Source: Thalassolituus maritimus | Lineage (GTDB): Bacteria; Pseudomonadota; Gammaproteobacteria; Pseudomonadales; Oceanobacteraceae | Assembly: GCF_900156675.1 (NCBI RefSeq) | Contig: NZ_FTOH01000001.1 | Coordinates: forward strand, 186,001 to 250,000 | DNA length: 64,000 bases | Reading direction: 5' to 3' | Part shown: positions 6,221-13,097 of the stretch, one piece after another | Numbering within the stretch: the first letter of the stretch is position 1 | How the letters are laid out: the number at the start of each line of letters is the position of its first letter | Program-made: the position numbers and the translations under genes | The notes under the pieces: model-generated | What the model was told of the DNA's origin: nothing | Seen by the model: only the letters and a program-made list of their open reading frames with translations | The model's database searches: none

Positions 6221-7927
6221 TTACTGCACTTCATCCTGAGAAGCAGCGAAGTAATTCAGGCTGCCCCGGTTACCCGGAGTGCGGTCGACGACGGTCAGAG
6301 TATAAGTGCCGCTGATACCGTTAGTGGTCGTAGCATACTGCCCGGCAGTGCCAGCCACCGAGGTACGGCTCATGGCTGTTTGCGTACCATCCGGCGCTGT
6401 CAGCGTTACACTCAGCTCGTTGTGGTTACTGTGATTGATTACAACGTTTGCCTGCCCGTTTTCACCACTATTGCCAACATTCAGGGAGATCCTTGAAACC
6501 CCTTCGCGGGTGAAGAACCACCAGTAACGACTTGCGTCATTGAGCGTGACATTGGTAGCACCGCCATAGGTGATTGTTTCAATAATGGGGTCTGGATCTA
6601 CCGGGTCCGTTGGGTCGGTCGGATCCGTCGGGTCGGTAGGTTCACCATCGGTCACGGCCAGTAAGGCCGCATAGGCATCTACCAGGCCCGTGCCACAGCC
6701 ATCACAGTTTCCAATGAAAGGACGAGCCGTATCCTTCAGAACATCTTCAATGGCCTGAGGCGTGAGGGATGGATTGGCCGAGCGAAGCAGAGCGACAACC
6801 CCCGCCACCTGAGGCGCTGCCATTGATGTGCCCTGATATTTTGCGTAAGCCGCGCCTGCACGTCCCTGCGATCCACTATCAACAGTACTGAGGATGCCAT
6901 CACCGTTGCCACCACCAGGTGCTGCGATATCAACAACATTGCCATAGTTAGAGTAGCTCGCCCGGCTACCATCGACGCCAACGGAGGCGACGGTGATAAC
7001 ATTATTACAGTTCGCAGGAACTGAACCTGACGCGTCGGTGTTTTCATTACCGGCTGCCACGACTACCACGGCTCCTGCCGCAGTGGCTGCATTAATGGCA
7101 TCCTGCATAAAGCCCGGGCAGCTGCCTGCACCACCGAGAGACATATTGATAACATCTGCCGGGTTGTTGTTTGTTGGCAAGCCAGCAACAGTCAGGCCAG
7201 CCGCCCACTGCACACCATCGGCGATATCAGAGAGTGATCCGCCACAGGTGCCCAGAACGCGTACCGGAACATGCTTAGCCTGAGGCGCTACGCCAGTGAT
7301 TCCTATGCCATCATCAGCAGAAGCGTTGGCAATACCGGCGACATGGGAGCCATGCCATGATGAGTTGCTGGAATAACCACAGGTCCAGAAAGTGGTGTAG
7401 TCTCCTTCATCGATCGCGTTGCTATCACGACCATTGCCATCCCGTGCGCTGCTTGAGCTACTGATCATGTCATAGCCGGGGAGAAGGTTGTCGTTCAGAT
7501 CGGGGTGAGGGACATAACCTGTGTCTGCGACCGCGATCACTGCACCAGCCCCCTGAGTGATATCCCAGGCGTCCTGGGCATTAATACCTGCCGCAGCACT
7601 GAATAGTCCCCATTGCTGACTGAGGTACGGATCATTCGGTACCAGGTTGGCCTGAACCTGTATATCCGGCTCTACGGCTTCAATCAGGTTGTAGCGCTGC
7701 AGCGCTTCGATCAGGCGGGTGTTGTGGTCAGGCAGATTAATTACCCAGCGGCGACGGTCTGCCATACGGCGTTTAACGGCCATTTCAGGGAACCACTTCT
7801 GAAAGCGTTCCCCGGCATCGTCTTGCGCGACTCGGGTGGTTACAACGTATTGCCCAGCCTGTGCAGGGTTAGCCCCCAGTGCCACTAATGCAGCCAGAGC
7901 TGCAGGCACATACTTTTTTATTGTCAT
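6221..7927 (-). CDS. Secreted S8 family serine peptidase (subtilase) with C-terminal P/PPC-type domain
   Basis: This is an extracellular subtilisin-type protease, 568 residues. A signal peptide ends at about residue 24 (NPAQA-GQ), followed by an inhibitor-like propeptide (~25-95). The catalytic triad is complete: Asp135 (VADTG), His192 (WHGSHVAG) and Ser in GTSMAAPQVAG (~370); the oxyanion Asn is in AAGNEN. After the catalytic domain comes a TDP-repeat linker and a ~110-residue beta-rich domain of the P-proprotein/PPC kind (GTYTLTVVDRTPGNRG near the end). Several Cys (CDGCG, TCGYS, GTCGG) may form disulphides. It is monocistronic, convergent with pnp and divergent from the next gene. The substrate cannot be deduced. 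Confidence 0.93.
   Translation of the reverse strand: MTIKKYVPAALAALVALGANPAQAGQYVVTTRVAQDDAGERFQKWFPEMAVKRRMADRRRWVINLPDHNTRLIEALQRYNLIEAVEPDIQVQANLVPNDPYLSQQWGLFSAAAGINAQDAWDITQGAGAVIAVADTGYVPHPDLNDNLLPGYDMISSSSSARDGNGRDSNAIDEGDYTTFWTCGYSSNSSWHGSHVAGIANASADDGIGITGVAPQAKHVPVRVLGTCGGSLSDIADGVQWAAGLTVAGLPTNNNPADVINMSLGGAGSCPGFMQDAINAATAAGAVVVVAAGNENTDASGSVPANCNNVITVASVGVDGSRASYSNYGNVVDIAAPGGGNGDGILSTVDSGSQGRAGAAYAKYQGTSMAAPQVAGVVALLRSANPSLTPQAIEDVLKDTARPFIGNCDGCGTGLVDAYAALLAVTDGEPTDPTDPTDPTDPVDPDPIIETITYGGATNVTLNDASRYWWFFTREGVSRISLNVGNSGENGQANVVINHSNHNELSVTLTAPDGTQTAMSRTSVAGTAGQYATTTNGISGTYTLTVVDRTPGNRGSLNYFAASQDEVQ
6599..6641 (-). repeat. 9-bp tandem repeat coding for the Thr-Asp-Pro linker
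   Basis: About four to five imperfect 9-bp units (coding TDP, TDP, TDP, TDP, VDP) join the protease and C-terminal domains of the subtilase. Such Pro/Thr/Asp linkers keep domains apart in secreted enzymes, and the unit number may vary between strains by slippage. Confidence 0.75.
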
Positions 7928-8212
7928 TATCGTGTCCTGTTTTTCTTCGTTTTAATTCCATTGCTCAACCCTATATTCCACTCTATTCGAATGCGCATGG
8001 CAATGGCATGACGTGCCACGGTTAAGGTGTTAGTGTGTACGCGTGGCGTTCTGGTTTATCCGATGCTGAATGCGAACACAGTGCGACAAGCTTTATAATT
8101 GCGTTCGTGATTTTTGCGTTAAGGCCAGATGTGCTACTACACTTATATAGCTGTCTATCATGTCTCTTCGATTGATCGAAGGCACAACAATAACAATCTG
8201 GTTCGTACCGGC

Positions 8213-9121
8213 ATGAAAAACTCGTCAAAATCCTGGTTACTTGGTGGCATCCTGTTGCTACCCGGAGCGCTGATTGCGCTCACTATGCAGTTCCTTTCAC
8301 CTGAGCTATTGTCCTCAGATCAACATCAGTCTATTCGTGTCCTGTCTGCATTACCCCCCACGGCGGCGGGCGAGGCTGACCTGACGGATATTGGTGGAGA
8401 CATCTGGTCCGGAGCCTTGAAACCTGTCACTTCTACTGAGCGGATTCGTACCGATGAAATGACTGGCAGCCTGACCTTACAGGTGCTCAAGTACAGGTTC
8501 CGCCGAAATCAGCAGATTGCTGCACGGATGCAGTTCGCCCCTGAGTCTGGTGAGCCGCCGAGGGGCTCACACATGTCTTTGGCAGTGACAACCCGTCAGG
8601 GAAATTACATCGCTGAGGCAACGCCTGAATGGATCACCACGGGTAACGGCACCGTTGGCAGTGCGATGATTACCCCTGAAGCAGGCTGGCCGGATCAGTT
8701 GACCCTTATTCTGACTCTTAAGGCACCAGAACGTTTACCGATTGAGTCCACGGTCGACATTGAACTCTTCAATCCAAAAGTGCTGATAAAGGGTGTTGGT
8801 AATATCTCAAGTGAGGGGGACGAGTGGTTGATCCCTATTATGGCTGAGGTGTACGAGCCTGGGGTGGTTGTCGTATCGGCTCGTCTGCTTGATAAGGCAG
8901 GTAATCTGGTGACGCACATCCATAGTCGTAGTCACTTTGACGAAAATGGAACTCTTGAAGTCCGGTTGCGCAAAAAGCTTATCGAAGCATCGATGCTGGA
9001 CGAAGGACTTGTGATGACGGATATTTCAGTGCGTCATATCGCAGATTCGCTCAATGCGGACATGGGGTGGGGAGATTCTGCTCAGGGCAGTTACAGGATT
9101 GATCCTGTGTCGGCGCAGTAG
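8213..9121 (+). CDS. Hypothetical exported or membrane-anchored protein
   Basis: I do not recognise this protein. It has 302 residues with an N-terminal hydrophobic segment at ~8-30 (WLLGGILLLPGALIALTMQFL) that is either a signal anchor or an uncleaved signal peptide, leaving the rest in the periplasm. The body appears beta-rich with alternating hydrophobic residues and no Cys, and looks like two sandwich-type domains (~75-185 and ~190-290); no catalytic motif is visible. I start it at the ATG at 8213, directly before the hydrophobic segment; an upstream ATG at 8129 would add 28 polar residues before it. It is divergent from the subtilase; a functional link is possible but unproven. Confidence 0.75.
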   Translation: MKNSSKSWLLGGILLLPGALIALTMQFLSPELLSSDQHQSIRVLSALPPTAAGEADLTDIGGDIWSGALKPVTSTERIRTDEMTGSLTLQVLKYRFRRNQQIAARMQFAPESGEPPRGSHMSLAVTTRQGNYIAEATPEWITTGNGTVGSAMITPEAGWPDQLTLILTLKAPERLPIESTVDIELFNPKVLIKGVGNISSEGDEWLIPIMAEVYEPGVVVVSARLLDKAGNLVTHIHSRSHFDENGTLEVRLRKKLIEASMLDEGLVMTDISVRHIADSLNADMGWGDSAQGSYRIDPVSAQ

Positions 9122-9128
9122 TACCGCA

Positions 9129-9410
9129 TCAGATGTAAAGGTCGAGCAGTCGGCCTCGATTTTCTTCTACTGACATAGCCGCGACCTCACCATAGGCTGA
9201 GGTTGGTCCGGCTGGTTTTTCACGCTGAAAGCTGTTTGCCATGGCCTCAAGATCGGCTTCATCCGGTATTGCCGGGATATATTCTACTTTTCTGCTACTT
9301 TCTCGCTCGTCAATAGTCTGCGTGCTTTGTCTGCGCGCAGAAGTTTCCCCCCGTTCATTATCCTGAACGGGAGGAACAAAGACGGGAGGTAGAATCGTAT
9401 TTGAGACCAT
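9129..9410 (-). CDS. Small hypothetical protein
   Basis: A 93-residue, hydrophilic, likely disordered protein of unknown function. It begins with a proline/valine stretch (ILPPVFVPPVQ), has an Arg/Glu/Ser-rich middle, and ends in a short conserved-looking helix (NRGRLLDLYI). There is no membrane segment and no Cys. It is the last of a run of co-oriented genes (DUF3530, MCP-like, ODP, PhzF-like), lying 43 bp after PhzF. The terminal GRLLDLYI motif resembles short tails of small gammaproteobacterial proteins of unknown role, but I cannot name a family. Confidence 0.6.
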   Translation of the reverse strand: MVSNTILPPVFVPPVQDNERGETSARRQSTQTIDERESSRKVEYIPAIPDEADLEAMANSFQREKPAGPTSAYGEVAAMSVEENRGRLLDLYI

Positions 9411-9453
9411 AGCTCAGAGTTTAGCTGGTTTTGACGAGCTGGGCACTGACTTG

Positions 9454-10278
9454 TCAGTCGGGTATGCGAATAACGCCCTGCATGTAGTGGTAGGTGGTTC
9501 CCGTGATCCTGACGCGGCTATCTTTCAGGTCGAGGCTGAGTTGGCCGCCTCGCTGAGATATCTGTCGGGCTTGCAGGCGGTTCTTCCCGAGTTTCTCGGC
9601 CCATAGTGGGGTCAATGAACAGAAAGACGAGCCTGTTACAGGATCTTCGTTAATCCCCTGCTGCGGTGCAAAGAAGCGGCTGACGAAATCAATGCGACCC
9701 TGCTGGGCTGGAGCGGTTATGGCCAGAGCAAAGCAATCCAGTTCGGCGAGAGCAGCGAAGTCGGGTGTGCAGTCCTGCACTGCTTTTTCATCCTTCAGAA
9801 TGGCGATGAGGTCGCGGGACTGCATGAGCTCAACGACTTCCGTGTTGAGTATTTTACTGACCTTGTTCAGTAACCGTTTGCCCGTGACCGCCTCCGGCGC
9901 ACGCTCTGGAAACTCAAGACAATAGCGGACAGGAGACTTTTCACTCAGTACGGTGACCGATATATCACCCGCCTGGCAGGTCATTGGAAGTTGTTCTCGT
10001 GTATCCCCCAGAATCTGATGGATCACATGGGCTGTCGCCAGTGTTGCGTGCCCACATAAATCGACTTCGCTGGTCGGCGTGAACCAGCGTAAGTGATAGG
10101 TGCCGTCTTCCTGTTTAACAAAGAATGTCGTTTCGGAGAGGTTGTTCTCGGCAGCAACTTCCTGCATCTGGCGATCGTCCAGCCAGTCATCAAGCGGAAC
10201 AACAGCTGCCGGATTGCCACTCAGGGAACGCGAGTTTTTCAGAGTAAAAGCGTCGATCTGAAATATAGGGAGATCCAT
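9454..10278 (-). CDS. PhzF family isomerase/epimerase-like protein
   Basis: PhzF-fold proteins share the diaminopimelate-epimerase fold; PhzF itself isomerises a phenazine precursor, but most family members have unknown substrates. There are 274 residues. The family landmarks are all present: SGNPAAVV near the N terminus, NNLSETTFFV with the catalytic Glu, DLCGHATLATAHV, and NEDPVTGSSFCSL in the second half-domain. The start is the ATG at 10278 (MDLPIFQIDAFT), which matches the family start; an upstream Met at 10317 is unlikely. No phenazine genes lie nearby, so phenazine synthesis is not implied. Confidence 0.88.
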   Translation of the reverse strand: MDLPIFQIDAFTLKNSRSLSGNPAAVVPLDDWLDDRQMQEVAAENNLSETTFFVKQEDGTYHLRWFTPTSEVDLCGHATLATAHVIHQILGDTREQLPMTCQAGDISVTVLSEKSPVRYCLEFPERAPEAVTGKRLLNKVSKILNTEVVELMQSRDLIAILKDEKAVQDCTPDFAALAELDCFALAITAPAQQGRIDFVSRFFAPQQGINEDPVTGSSFCSLTPLWAEKLGKNRLQARQISQRGGQLSLDLKDSRVRITGTTYHYMQGVIRIPD

Positions 10279-10355
10279 GCGCGATGTTCCAGAGAAAATT
10301 CGCAGGCATGCTATCACGACGACTCGTTTAACGGGAGCAGTAACAGAAGAGGTAA

Positions 10356-10376
10356 CGGGAGCGAGTCAGGCTCCCG
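10356..10376 (-). other. Hairpin after the ODP gene
   Basis: CGGGAGC (10356-10362) and GCTCCCG (10370-10376) form a 7-bp stem with a 7-base loop, 20 bp after the end of the ODP-like gene. No T run follows on the minus strand, so termination is uncertain. TAACGGGAGC occurs twice within 30 bases here. Confidence 0.4.
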
Positions 10377-10396
10377 GGAGTGTTACTAATCAGGGA

Positions 10397-11134
10397 TTAG
10401 CCTTTGATGGCGACACCGACAGGCAGTTGCTCGAACCAGCGCAGGAAGTCAGCAACGTGTGGTGGCTTAAACAAACGGCCGTGCTGGGGCGCCATGATCT
10501 TGATATCGAGTGCACTTACCCGACGGATCCAGTCGTGTTTAGCGGCATCGGAGGGCATCCAGCGCTGGTGAAATTTTTTCATTTTTGGGGCATGCCGCTC
10601 CATGCTGTCTACCCACAGCGGGGCACCGGGCTCTTCGAGGGCGGCACCGACGTCACCACTCATCAGAATGCCGGCTTTAGCATCCCATACATGAAAATTA
10701 CCTGAGGAATGCAGGTAGTGCGCGGGAATGAATTGCAGCTGGATACGCCCGAGCGTAATCGTCATGCCTTCATCCGGAATCGCTTTATACGTGATGTTGT
10801 TCATACCAAAGTGGCGAATAAAACTTTCCCATAACCATGGAGAATAGAGTTCCGCATTCGGTAGCGCCTGATCCCAGAGACCGAGAGACGAAATAATGTC
10901 CGGGTCCTGATGAGAGGCGAACAATTTAGTGATGCCCTCGGCCGGGACGTACTTCAGCACAGAGGACAGCATAGGGGCGAACAGCTCAATACCACCAGGA
11001 TCAAGGAGAATGGCCTCGTTCCCGCTTTGAATCAGGTATTGGTTGGTATCAATGATGCCATCTGGCTTACCTGGATCACGCGCGAACATAATCCAGCGGT
11101 GATCGCCATCTTCATACAAAACGGTGGCTAGCAT
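10397..11134 (-). CDS. Metallo-beta-lactamase-fold di-iron protein, ODP (oxygen-binding di-iron) type
   Basis: This 245-residue protein has the MBL fold of flavodiiron proteins without a flavodoxin domain. Candidate iron ligands are visible in order: SHQDPD (~74-79, replacing HxExD), PAHYLHSSGN (~136-145), SGDVGAA (~158-164) and PQHG (~216-219). Stand-alone proteins of this type, called ODP, act as O2/Fe(II) sensors that talk to chemotaxis receptors in Treponema denticola. Here the gene overlaps a mini MCP-like gene by 7 bp, supporting such a partnership. It could instead be an O2- or NO-reducing enzyme lacking its electron-transfer domain, but the missing flavodoxin argues for a sensor. Cytoplasmic. 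Confidence 0.82.
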   Translation of the reverse strand: MLATVLYEDGDHRWIMFARDPGKPDGIIDTNQYLIQSGNEAILLDPGGIELFAPMLSSVLKYVPAEGITKLFASHQDPDIISSLGLWDQALPNAELYSPWLWESFIRHFGMNNITYKAIPDEGMTITLGRIQLQFIPAHYLHSSGNFHVWDAKAGILMSGDVGAALEEPGAPLWVDSMERHAPKMKKFHQRWMPSDAAKHDWIRRVSALDIKIMAPQHGRLFKPPHVADFLRWFEQLPVGVAIKG

Positions 11135-11736
11135 GCTATTTTCCTTTCCCTGTGGTTCTGGCTGAGCAGACTGTTAGCGCGATTAAGATGGGCTGCAATC
11201 CGGTCTGCTGTTTTACGGATGTTGTCGGCAATTACCTCAAGCTGTTCACGGAAATCGCCCGCGGTAGCCGCTTCTACGTGGCTGGAGGTTGCAATCAGGT
11301 TTGCAGTTCGAATGTGTTTGTAACTCTCATCGATCTGGCCAATCAGGTCTCTGAGACCGATCTGGAGTTCGTGATTCAGTGCGTCGAGTTGCTTATCGCA
11401 TTGATTAATATGCGGGCGGATAGAAGCAAGGTGCTCCGGCTTCTGGGCTTCAACCCAGCGAAAATGTGCCATGGCGTTATCCGAATGCCAGGCTGTTACG
11501 GCCTGAGTCGATAGTTTCTCAGCGTGATGATTGATCACCCTCGATTGCGAGATAATGGCACTGGCGAGTTCTTCAATAAAATCCGTGATCGCACGGAAGC
11601 CAACAGTCTTACTCCCGGCACGAACCGCCAGCGCCCTGGCATTCTTTGCTGTCAGGGCCAGACCTCTGGCTTCTATCATTGCCTGGTGCAACTCGGCGGA
11701 TACGCTGGCTGCAATTATGAATACTGGCGCGGCCAC
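11128..11736 (-). CDS. Short soluble methyl-accepting-chemotaxis-like signalling protein
   Basis: A 202-residue, almost wholly helical protein with no convincing membrane segment. Residues ~20-60 (LALTAKNARALAVRAGSKTVGFRAITDFIEELA) resemble the hairpin tip of chemoreceptors (ALNAxIEAARAG..GxGFxVVAxEIRxLA), but the signature is degenerate and there are no periplasmic, HAMP or full-length adaptation helices. The rest (~75-195) is a predicted helical bundle. The start codon is GTG at 11736 with a GGAGAG site about eight bases upstream. It overlaps the downstream ODP-like gene by 7 bp. It could be an ODP-linked input to CheA/CheW arrays, or an independent helical-bundle sensor. No che genes are in the window. 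Confidence 0.7.
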   Translation of the reverse strand: MAAPVFIIAASVSAELHQAMIEARGLALTAKNARALAVRAGSKTVGFRAITDFIEELASAIISQSRVINHHAEKLSTQAVTAWHSDNAMAHFRWVEAQKPEHLASIRPHINQCDKQLDALNHELQIGLRDLIGQIDESYKHIRTANLIATSSHVEAATAGDFREQLEVIADNIRKTADRIAAHLNRANSLLSQNHRERKIAC

Positions 11737-11788
11737 AATCTCTCTCCATCAGGTGGGTATTCCCACTAAGCTTAGAATAGATTCTGAA

Positions 11789-12925
11789 TTAGGGTAGTTC
11801 TGTCCCTGCAGCATTTGTTCGCAGCCAGCCTCTTATCCTTCGAAGTACGGTATTGCTGTCGGCAGAGGCACTGCTGAGGTGAATTTGTTGATAACGGTCG
11901 CGATGGCGACGCTTCATTGCGCCCATTCTCTGTTTGTCCTGCCATGAAGAGGACCTCGCCTCTGCGGTAAGGATATCGAGCACGGGAACTTCCAGCGTTT
12001 CCAGAACCTGAGAGAGACGCAGAGGGCTCAGAGGGTGTTCTCTCGGATCAACCAGAACCAATACCAGACCGTTTGAGTTTTCAGTCTCACGTTGTCGGGT
12101 CTGTACGGCATTCGCAGCCCATACGGCACTGTCACCATGAGCGATAACGACATTGTTCAGCTGGCCGCGGCTGGCCAGATAACCCAGGCCGGAGCGAATG
12201 CGCCCGGCAATGCCTTCGGTGTAGGCTTTGCGCTTCTGTTCTGCCGTAAGGCCAGTATCGCTCTCTTGCAAATCACTCTCAGTCGTCGCATTTACGGAGC
12301 CTTCATCTGGCGCGATATCCTGAATGGCGGTGCCGTCAGCATCTTCCTGAGTCGGTTCGTCGTTGGCTGGTTCTGCGTCTTCATTGGCCGTGTCTTCCTC
12401 AGTTGTGTCGTCTTCGGAAGTATTACCACCTTCTAGCGCAGCATCGGTACTGGTGGGTACAGGCTGCCGGATAGGTAGCCTTTCTACTGGTGCGGTTGGC
12501 AATTCAATCGCCAGGGTGGTCCAGCCATAGTCGGTCAGTGCCTCCCGCAGGGGGGCTACCAGTTCGGGCCAGTGAGCGTGTTGTTCGATGTCGTGAAGTA
12601 TCAGCGCTCCGCCCTGGGGTCTACCGCTTTGTTCCCGTAGGAATAGTCCATGAAAAGAGTCGGGGCCGGCGACAAGGGTCACAACTTCATCTGATCGTTG
12701 AAACAGTGCCAGATGCTCTATGATGCTCTGATGTCGCTCTGAATCGGGGTAGGGGAGCGCCCGGACAGGTGCCACGGGGGCGGGGCTTCCTGAGTCATCC
12801 GTTGCCTGTTCTGCCGTTTCCTCCGGCGGAGTACTTTCATTCTCTTCCTCTTCACTGAACGCCGGCAACGAGACGGCAATCAGGAGCAGGCAAGTGGCAA
12901 AGCGGCAGGCAAACATTGGTTTCAT
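11789..12925 (-). CDS. DUF3530 family exported protein (alpha/beta-hydrolase-like)
   Basis: Exported protein of unknown function, 378 residues, matching the DUF3530 pattern: signal peptide ~1-24 (MKPMFACRFATCLLLIAVSLPAFS), Glu-rich mature start, a domain with GPDSFHGLFL, GGALILHDIEQHAHWP and DYGWTTLAIELP, then a long acidic low-complexity insertion (~150-225, Asp/Glu/Thr), and the second half with VIAHGDSAVWAA, where the hydrolase nucleophile would sit. The HGDSA motif looks like a nucleophile elbow. I chose the ATG at 12925, which gives a clean signal peptide; an earlier Met (13039) adds a Cys-rich unlikely extension. First of five co-oriented genes, divergent from rpe. Confidence 0.8.
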   Translation of the reverse strand: MKPMFACRFATCLLLIAVSLPAFSEEEENESTPPEETAEQATDDSGSPAPVAPVRALPYPDSERHQSIIEHLALFQRSDEVVTLVAGPDSFHGLFLREQSGRPQGGALILHDIEQHAHWPELVAPLREALTDYGWTTLAIELPTAPVERLPIRQPVPTSTDAALEGGNTSEDDTTEEDTANEDAEPANDEPTQEDADGTAIQDIAPDEGSVNATTESDLQESDTGLTAEQKRKAYTEGIAGRIRSGLGYLASRGQLNNVVIAHGDSAVWAANAVQTRQRETENSNGLVLVLVDPREHPLSPLRLSQVLETLEVPVLDILTAEARSSSWQDKQRMGAMKRRHRDRYQQIHLSSASADSNTVLRRIRGWLRTNAAGTELP

Positions 12926-13097
12926 AGTGTCAGAAATATCGCGAATCAGGGACATACATGAACGACAGCAAAAACCGTTCCCCAATACAGAATGGCACAG
13001 GGAGCAGAATGGCACAGGAAATGGCCTGGTAAATGGCATAGGAGAGGGAGAGCACGTACAATAACGCCAAATTCACTGTCCCCTGGAATCCAAGCCC

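Follow-up and report, generated by a model that had tools for sequence, protein, structure and literature searches.

A conserved gene pair encoding an ODP-family protein and a putative single-chain protein with two chemoreceptor-like tips in Thalassolituus maritimus

Results

The window analyzed here, a 64,000-nucleotide stretch of the Thalassolituus maritimus genome, contains two overlapping genes whose products probably work together as a sensor of O2 and Fe(II), with output to a chemosensory array through a receptor tip carried on a single chain; the sensing, the binding of the two proteins to each other, and the control of the kinase are inferred. One gene (positions 10397..11134, minus strand) encodes a 245-amino-acid (aa) ODP-family di-iron protein of the metallo-beta-lactamase fold, assigned from Pfam, PDB relatives, and motifs. 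The other (11128..11736, minus strand), which uses a GTG start, encodes a 202-aa soluble, helical protein with two putative chemoreceptor-tip hairpins in one chain; we refer to this partner of ODP as SMP, a name coined here. The two open reading frames (ORFs) share 7 bp and lie on the minus strand, as the original prediction from the bare sequence had them. An SMP 100% identical to that of the window is encoded in an Oleibacter marinus MAG (L069).

Directly upstream of SMP, on the same strand and after a 52-bp gap, lies a DUF3530 gene (11789..13039, minus strand). This family occupies the place upstream of SMP in close relatives (14 of the 69 loci analyzed) and is not kept there in the wider family; the gene probably lies outside the SMP-ODP system. 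Because flanking genes differ across the SMP-ODP family, the DUF3530 and PhzF neighbors were dropped as candidate partners. Two ORFs near PhzF (9129-9410, minus strand, and 8129-9121, plus strand) had no Pfam or NCBIfam match. A scan for sigma-70 promoters found 2 against 2.3 expected and is therefore uninformative, and terminator-like sites numbered 10 against 2.9 expected.

Sequence comparisons assign the downstream gene product to the ODP family, from which binding of Fe(II) and O2 is inferred. It matches the Pfam ODP profile (PF19583) over its entire length (1-194 of 194) with 238.1 bits against a cut-off of 27.2, and it also matches Lactamase_B; no flavodoxin or other redox-partner domain was matched in the Pfam scan. 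The closest solved structures are "oxygen-binding diiron proteins" (6qrq, E = 1.9e-59; 6qnm, E = 6.8e-54), and flavodiiron proteins, which belong to the same superfamily, give weak matches. This agrees with the predicted flavodiiron-like, ODP-type metallo-beta-lactamase protein without flavodoxin. All four of the candidate ligand motifs that had been named are present on the minus strand, and by homology they are metal-site motifs: SHQDPD (residue 74; 10898..10915), PAHYLH (residue 137; 10709..10726), SGD (residue 159; 10652..10660), and PQHG (residue 216; 10478..10489). Excerpts of a study of the T. maritima ODP place a Gln at "motif 5" in its metal site (PMC7785958), which we infer to be the Gln of PQHG.

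The motif string of the window's ODP is identical in 94 of 125 aligned entries and changed in the rest (a genome is in some cases represented by more than one locus), and HQDPD, SGD, and PQHG are kept in 20/20 aligned ODPs that have no SMP. In some pairs the ODP motifs are changed and SMP is retained, which we counted against the array-sensor model. One such group comprises 11 ODPs (L101, L102, L105, L113-L117, and L120-L122), mostly from Pseudoalteromonas luteoviolacea strains, in which SAN and PNHG replace SGD and PQHG without exception, so that two metal-site motifs are altered together; SMP and the pairing are retained, and a further locus under the same species name (L096) falls outside the group. 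Elsewhere, the ODPs of L004 and L071 (Thalassolituus sp. MAG bin78) carry SRQSPD and PAHYLP instead of SHQDPD and PAHYLH beside an SMP 85-86% identical to the window's; these ODPs are possibly decaying or repurposed sensors, or the product of an assembly error.

Profile comparison establishes both hairpins of SMP as homologous to chemoreceptor (MCP) tips. An alignment of 59 family members was halved, and the halves were compared by hhalign with a profile of 20 MCP signaling domains from the same genome, each E value referring to one comparison. Hairpin 1 (residues 11-85; 11482..11706, minus strand) aligned with the MCP tips over 75 columns without a gap (probability, 95.5; E = 1.6e-8), and the second half, in which the second MCP-like tip lies (hairpin 2, residues 145-195; 11152..11304, minus strand), aligned over 51 columns, also ungapped (probability, 84.1; E = 7.4e-6). 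The first half matched the second with a probability of 69.4 (E = 4.3e-5). For hairpin 1, hairpin 2, and half against half, respectively, the scores were 50.4, 36.5, and 29.4, compared to 21.8, 16.8, and 17.4 for the best of the column shuffles, of which 0/60 did as well in each case, and to 18.5, 22.1, and 12.2 for reversed alignments. The SMP profile also reaches full-length MCPs outside this genome, with E values of roughly 1e-8 to 1e-10. Matches of single SMP sequences in Pfam, NCBIfam, and the PDB were too weak to decide: MCPsignal (PF00015) matched residues 144-191 with 22.6 bits (E = 1e-4), short of its cut-off of 34.6, and the best PDB match had an E value of 0.077. The subthreshold MCPsignal match falls on hairpin 2 in the window's SMP and on hairpin 1 in that of L216. 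The original prediction had seen a likeness to a chemoreceptor tip at residues ~20 to 60, which the alignment of residues 11 to 85 substantiates. Its picture of a receptor reduced to a signaling tip was right about the tip and wrong about the number, since there are two and the one at residues ~145 to 195 had been missed.

SMP had also been described as lacking a membrane segment, a HAMP domain, and a full adaptation region, and each of these absences is supported. A Pfam scan at E values up to 1 gave no HAMP match, and no strong hydrophobic segment was found, the best 19-residue Kyte-Doolittle mean being 1.37. The arms predicted from the model of a relative are about 40 to 60 residues long, too short to reach methylation sites placed as in Tsr, which we take to be about 75 to 110 residues from the tip. 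A complete MCP signaling domain per unit is not present; only tip ends are kept, about 100 aa each. As far as sequence and modeling can tell, SMP thus consists of two signaling tips in one chain with no membrane segment, its fold being predicted and not solved.

AlphaFold2 modeled the window's SMP with a pLDDT of 82 and a pTM of 0.68 (DSSP helices at 5-98, 100-157, and 160-201) and the SMP of Pseudoalteromonas amylolytica (L095) with a pLDDT of 87.1 and a pTM of 0.76 (helices at 4-52, 55-106, 110-163, and 166-203). The helix breaks of the Pseudoalteromonas model coincide with tips 1 and 2 and with the distal loop. Hairpin 1 of the window's model is one continuous helix in which confidence merely dips at residues 41-50, and we counted this against the pseudo-dimer model. 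Single-chain four-helix bundles ranked high in the Foldseek search with the Pseudoalteromonas model (TM up to 0.66-0.68 with 6z0c) and were matched at a TM of about 0.55 by the window's model, and neither model had a match at E ≤ 0.001. The MCP entries 2ch7_A, 9a69_B, and 9a72_A stand lower in the Pseudoalteromonas list and carry little weight. From the helix boundaries and these matches, not from coordinates, we infer that both predicted tips sit at one end of the bundle, as in a receptor dimer. With two tips in one chain, SMP would mimic such a dimer, and it looks like a single-chain, asymmetric receptor-tip pseudo-dimer.

We numbered the tip positions by what we take to be Tsr residue numbers, anchored on a Tsr-like tip of the window's genome. 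N32, R39, G41, and F47 of hairpin 1 fall at the positions of Tsr N381, R388, G390, and F396, and E155 of hairpin 2 falls at that of E385. N32 is present in 74/74 SMPs and, after the addition of 16 members, in 90/90. Position 39 is R in 71 and K in 3 of the 74, and R in 82, K in 4, and Q in 4 of the 90 (R or K in 86/90); position 155 is E in 74/74, and E in 86, V in 3, and Q in 1 of the larger set. Hairpin 1 has an acidic residue at the E385 position in 0/90. Hairpin 2 carries T or S at the N381 position in 57/90 and N in 14/90, with R or K at the R388 position in 19/90. The aligned sequences therefore show a strong though not absolute trend for the N/R side to lie in hairpin 1 and the Glu side in hairpin 2. 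The Tsr L380 position is K in 59/74 hairpin-1 tips, and hairpin 2 has lost Gly at positions G393 and G395; because some MCP tip positions are replaced in SMP, contacts with CheW or within trimers may be altered. Conservation across SMP peaks at the tips, with a mean top-residue frequency of 0.72 at residues 31-40 and 0.64 at residues 151-160, and is lowest (0.24-0.25) in the far loop at residues 91-120.

The pairing of SMP with ODP is conserved. Among 35 relatives, ODP lies directly downstream of SMP at all 20 SMP loci (E below 1e-18), and a more distant ODP, unaccompanied by SMP, occurs in 2 genomes. In named genomes (L069-L128), ODP is directly downstream on the same strand at 58/60 loci, the two exceptions being a contig edge (L127) and a locus in which both genes are broken (L124). 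The latter, in Pseudoalteromonas aurantia S3788, looks as if SMP and ODP had been lost together. A survey of the order with a profile of close members found SMP in 30/390 genomes, and 30 of the 31 matches were fetched, with the pair present in 30/30. A class-wide search of 369 genomes used a profile that included divergent SMP members; its weaker matches were mostly full-length MCPs, and a few other short open frames among its matches lie outside the count given here. Thirty loci from this search were fetched, 1 holding a full-length MCP and 29, the window's included, an SMP, and ODP adjoins SMP directly downstream in 29/29. In a sample of the phylum, a clear SMP was found in 5/398 genomes, namely the window's and 4 of the same class. 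Two genomes (G972 and G787) carry two SMP-ODP pairs each, judged by coordinates.

ODP also occurs without SMP. It was found in 52/274 genomes of the class sample, and SMP lay upstream in 12 and was absent in 18 of the 30 ODP loci fetched. No signaling-family protein was found among 10 neighbors of SMP-less ODPs at 8 loci, 8 of the 10 proteins having a Pfam match. One such neighbor (in L211), considered as a hidden partner, is a thiamine phosphate synthase. A maximum-likelihood tree of 66 ODPs splits the 52 SMP-linked members from the 14 SMP-less ones with an ultrafast bootstrap of 100; a first ODP tree had given the same kind of split with a low root support of 0.315.

Some pairs are embedded in chemotaxis operons. 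In the class-wide search, che genes lie within 1.5 kb of 8 of the 29 fetched SMP loci. STAS, CheA, MCP, CheW, CheB, and CheR genes, confirmed with Pfam, surround the pair in L216 and L217, and che genes in the wider stretches of all eight loci were named by similarity to the genes of these two. The order is mcp-cheY-STAS-cheA-mcp-cheW-SMP-ODP-cheR-cheB in L251 and L253, L252 adds a second MCP and CheW to this order, and L249 and L250 have cheY-cheA-SMP-ODP-mcp-cheW-mcp. In the ODP tree, the eight che-operon members and the free-standing L224 form a clade (support, 85) whose sister comprises 41 others, including the window's (support, 98); L219 and L220 branch outside both. The clade that includes the window's pair is mostly free-standing, which we counted against the array model. 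The original prediction had placed the pair outside any che cluster, and this is true of the window's own pair: the surrounding 19-kb stretch (L159) had no che or MCP match, and none of the 15 CheW-domain matches of the genome lies on the same contig. It does not extend to the family as a whole, given the 8 loci in che context. These che-operon relatives had not been foreseen, and they strengthen the sensory model.

A set of 77 longer loci lies almost entirely outside the che-operon clade, and 68 of them have no che or MCP match. An MCP is nearby in L158 and L213, and three further loci have response-regulator matches only. In three genomes of one genus (L149-L151), about 2.4 kb separate ODP from a cheV gene further downstream; in L149 the gene (9588-10532) encodes CheW and response-regulator domains according to a Pfam scan run on that locus only, and L150 and L151 have a matching gene. 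In L153, which is also outside the che-operon clade, MCP, CheY-like, and CheA genes (7589-13001, plus strand) stand directly beside the pair on the opposite strand. Several free-standing pairs neighbor c-di-GMP or HDOD genes (GGDEF, GGDEF-EAL, or HDOD), the upstream genes in L113, L095, and L089 being examples.

With 20 domain matches to MCPsignal and 15 to CheW in the window's genome, arrays are expected in this organism. CheW was found in 34/34 SMP-bearing genomes and then in 16/16 more (best E at most 2e-38); it was also found in 10/10 genomes with a single ODP and no SMP, in 4 of them only at a best E of 5e-18 to 9e-30. Co-occurrence with CheA and CheW had been proposed as a check, and CheW does accompany every SMP examined; since it is common in the order (331/390 genomes sampled), however, co-occurrence alone is weak evidence. 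On another contig of the window's genome (L255:3564-7039, contig C25 of G000), a 637-aa protein with two complete MCP signaling domains adjoins a 517-aa protein with three CheW domains, followed by CheB-, CheR-, and CheY-like genes and a 1,015-aa CheA. The genome of the window therefore also holds a single-chain chemoreceptor system of full size.

Discussion

The original prediction of a sensory pair would have fallen if the 202-residue protein had failed to align with MCP signaling domains in profile searches or if the two genes had not been conserved as neighbors. The alignment was obtained for both hairpins and the adjacency holds in the class-wide and named-genome sets alike, so the model passed both tests, which do not cover O2 or iron sensing, ODP-SMP binding, or kinase control. 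In the mechanism that we propose, ODP would act as a sensor reporting Fe(II) and O2, a role described for T. denticola ODP (PMC7666581), and SMP would be the cytoplasmic tip of a receptor, reduced to its end and doubled in one chain, such that one polypeptide could make up the four-helix bundle for which a dimer of receptors is normally required. ODP would bind SMP in an iron- or oxygen-dependent manner, SMP would use its conserved tip end, where it would meet CheA/CheW or other receptors, to sit within or next to CheA/CheW arrays, and binding or release of ODP would alter kinase activity. Metal and O2 binding by this ODP, contact between ODP and SMP, insertion into arrays, trimers of dimers, binding to CheA/CheW, and the direction of the signal are all inferences.

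The main alternative is that the free-standing SMPs have left the array and carry the ODP signal elsewhere, for example to c-di-GMP enzymes, their receptor ancestry being only history. In 27 of 69 loci, all from Pseudoalteromonas, the divergent gene directly upstream belongs to one protein cluster, three scanned members of which all have GGDEF and two also EAL, and a GGDEF gene abuts ODP in L154 (7595-9343) and an HDOD gene in L085 (7324-8187). The partly changed tip residues and the 68 longer loci without che or MCP matches point the same way. However, neighbors differ at other free-standing loci, the conserved part of SMP is its tips and not its distal end, every SMP-bearing genome examined has CheW domains, the sister clade sits in che operons, and a few members of the free-standing clade lie near chemotaxis genes (cheV in L149-L151; mcp, cheY, and cheA in L153). 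We therefore judge departure from the array to be unlikely.

Less likely still is an ODP that serves mainly as an enzyme handling O2 or NO in the manner of flavodiiron proteins, with SMP as a scaffold or localization factor tethering it to arrays. The weak flavodiiron matches within the same superfamily would suit such a role, but no flavodoxin or other redox-partner domain was matched in ODP, a relative in T. denticola is described as a sensor in the text available from PMC7666581, and SMP-linked loci occur in che operons (8/29) whereas the scanned neighbors of SMP-less ODPs are not signaling proteins. That SMP is an unrelated helical protein, its tip likeness a chance coiled-coil similarity, we consider close to untenable. 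Only the weakness of the single-sequence matches speaks for it; both halves outscored all 60 shuffles and the reversed control (50.4 versus 18.5 and 36.5 versus 22.1), the SMP profile finds full-length MCPs elsewhere, and relatives lie in che operons. Chance helical similarity was rejected on the profile comparison with these shuffled and reversed controls.

The division of tip residues between the hairpins admits a narrower and more speculative idea. The part of PMC8144572 consulted describes an ionic lock between dimers of a modeled archaeal receptor; its residues, E355-R358', are homologous to E385-R388' of Tsr. With this lock divided between its hairpins, SMP may be an asymmetric tip that joins only as a guest in the trimers of other receptors, capping mixed trimers and forming no closed homotrimer of its own; we put this forward tentatively and would not be surprised to see it fail, and the exceptions at E155 and R39 in the larger set made us slightly less confident of it. 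If it were true, a soluble di-iron protein could tune an existing array without a membrane or methylation machinery of its own, and the pair would be a portable two-gene add-on sensor, occurring both on its own as a cassette and within che operons.

Should the broader model hold, the pair would represent a very small receptor-like input to the chemotaxis array, with the intracellular O2 or iron state wired in via two small genes. The che-operon pairs suggest a way for a free-floating sensor to connect to the machinery that controls swimming. A reduced single-chain chemoreceptor with a defined sensor partner and che-operon relatives makes the question of its role directly testable. The inner and outer subunits of a receptor do different jobs that conventional mutations cannot separate, as stated in the portion of PMC4692393 available, and in SMP the symmetry of the receptor tip is already broken by nature.

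We found no account of a tip-only, ODP-paired single-chain receptor in the literature searched, the scope of which did not include Muok et al. 2019, and nothing on the SMP-ODP pair in the available portions of PMC10653840, PMC13401364, and PMC7184735. The nearest counterpart is in T. denticola, where, from partial texts, ODP (TDE2498) is coupled to the soluble receptor TDE2496, which can modulate CheA (PMC7666581), and its interaction with its receptors is said to depend on conformation (PMC6978683); excerpts of the TREND paper report, for two orders, operons that combine ODP and MCP genes (PMC7319448). As in TDE2498/TDE2496 as described there, an ODP sensor gene is coupled to an MCP homolog without a membrane or sensing module. 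Unlike TDE2496, SMP is a single chain of ~200 aa with two divergent tip hairpins, is found in Gammaproteobacteria, and lies in some cases in che operons. Natural single-chain soluble chemoreceptors, their roles called unknown, have been reported in centenum and other genomes, and an engineered single-chain Tsr~Tsr can signal (both from the accessible part of PMC4692393). SMP resembles the natural proteins in having two receptor signaling units in one soluble chain and differs in being reduced to the tip ends (~100 aa per hairpin), in its diverged tips, and in its pairing with ODP. The engineered protein is relevant because a covalently fused receptor dimer can signal, although, from the same partial source, it is full-length, membrane-bound, built of two like subunits, and man-made. 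ODP, for its part, shares the metallo-beta-lactamase di-iron fold with flavodiiron proteins but has no flavodoxin match and carries the ODP-type motifs HQDPD and PQHG.
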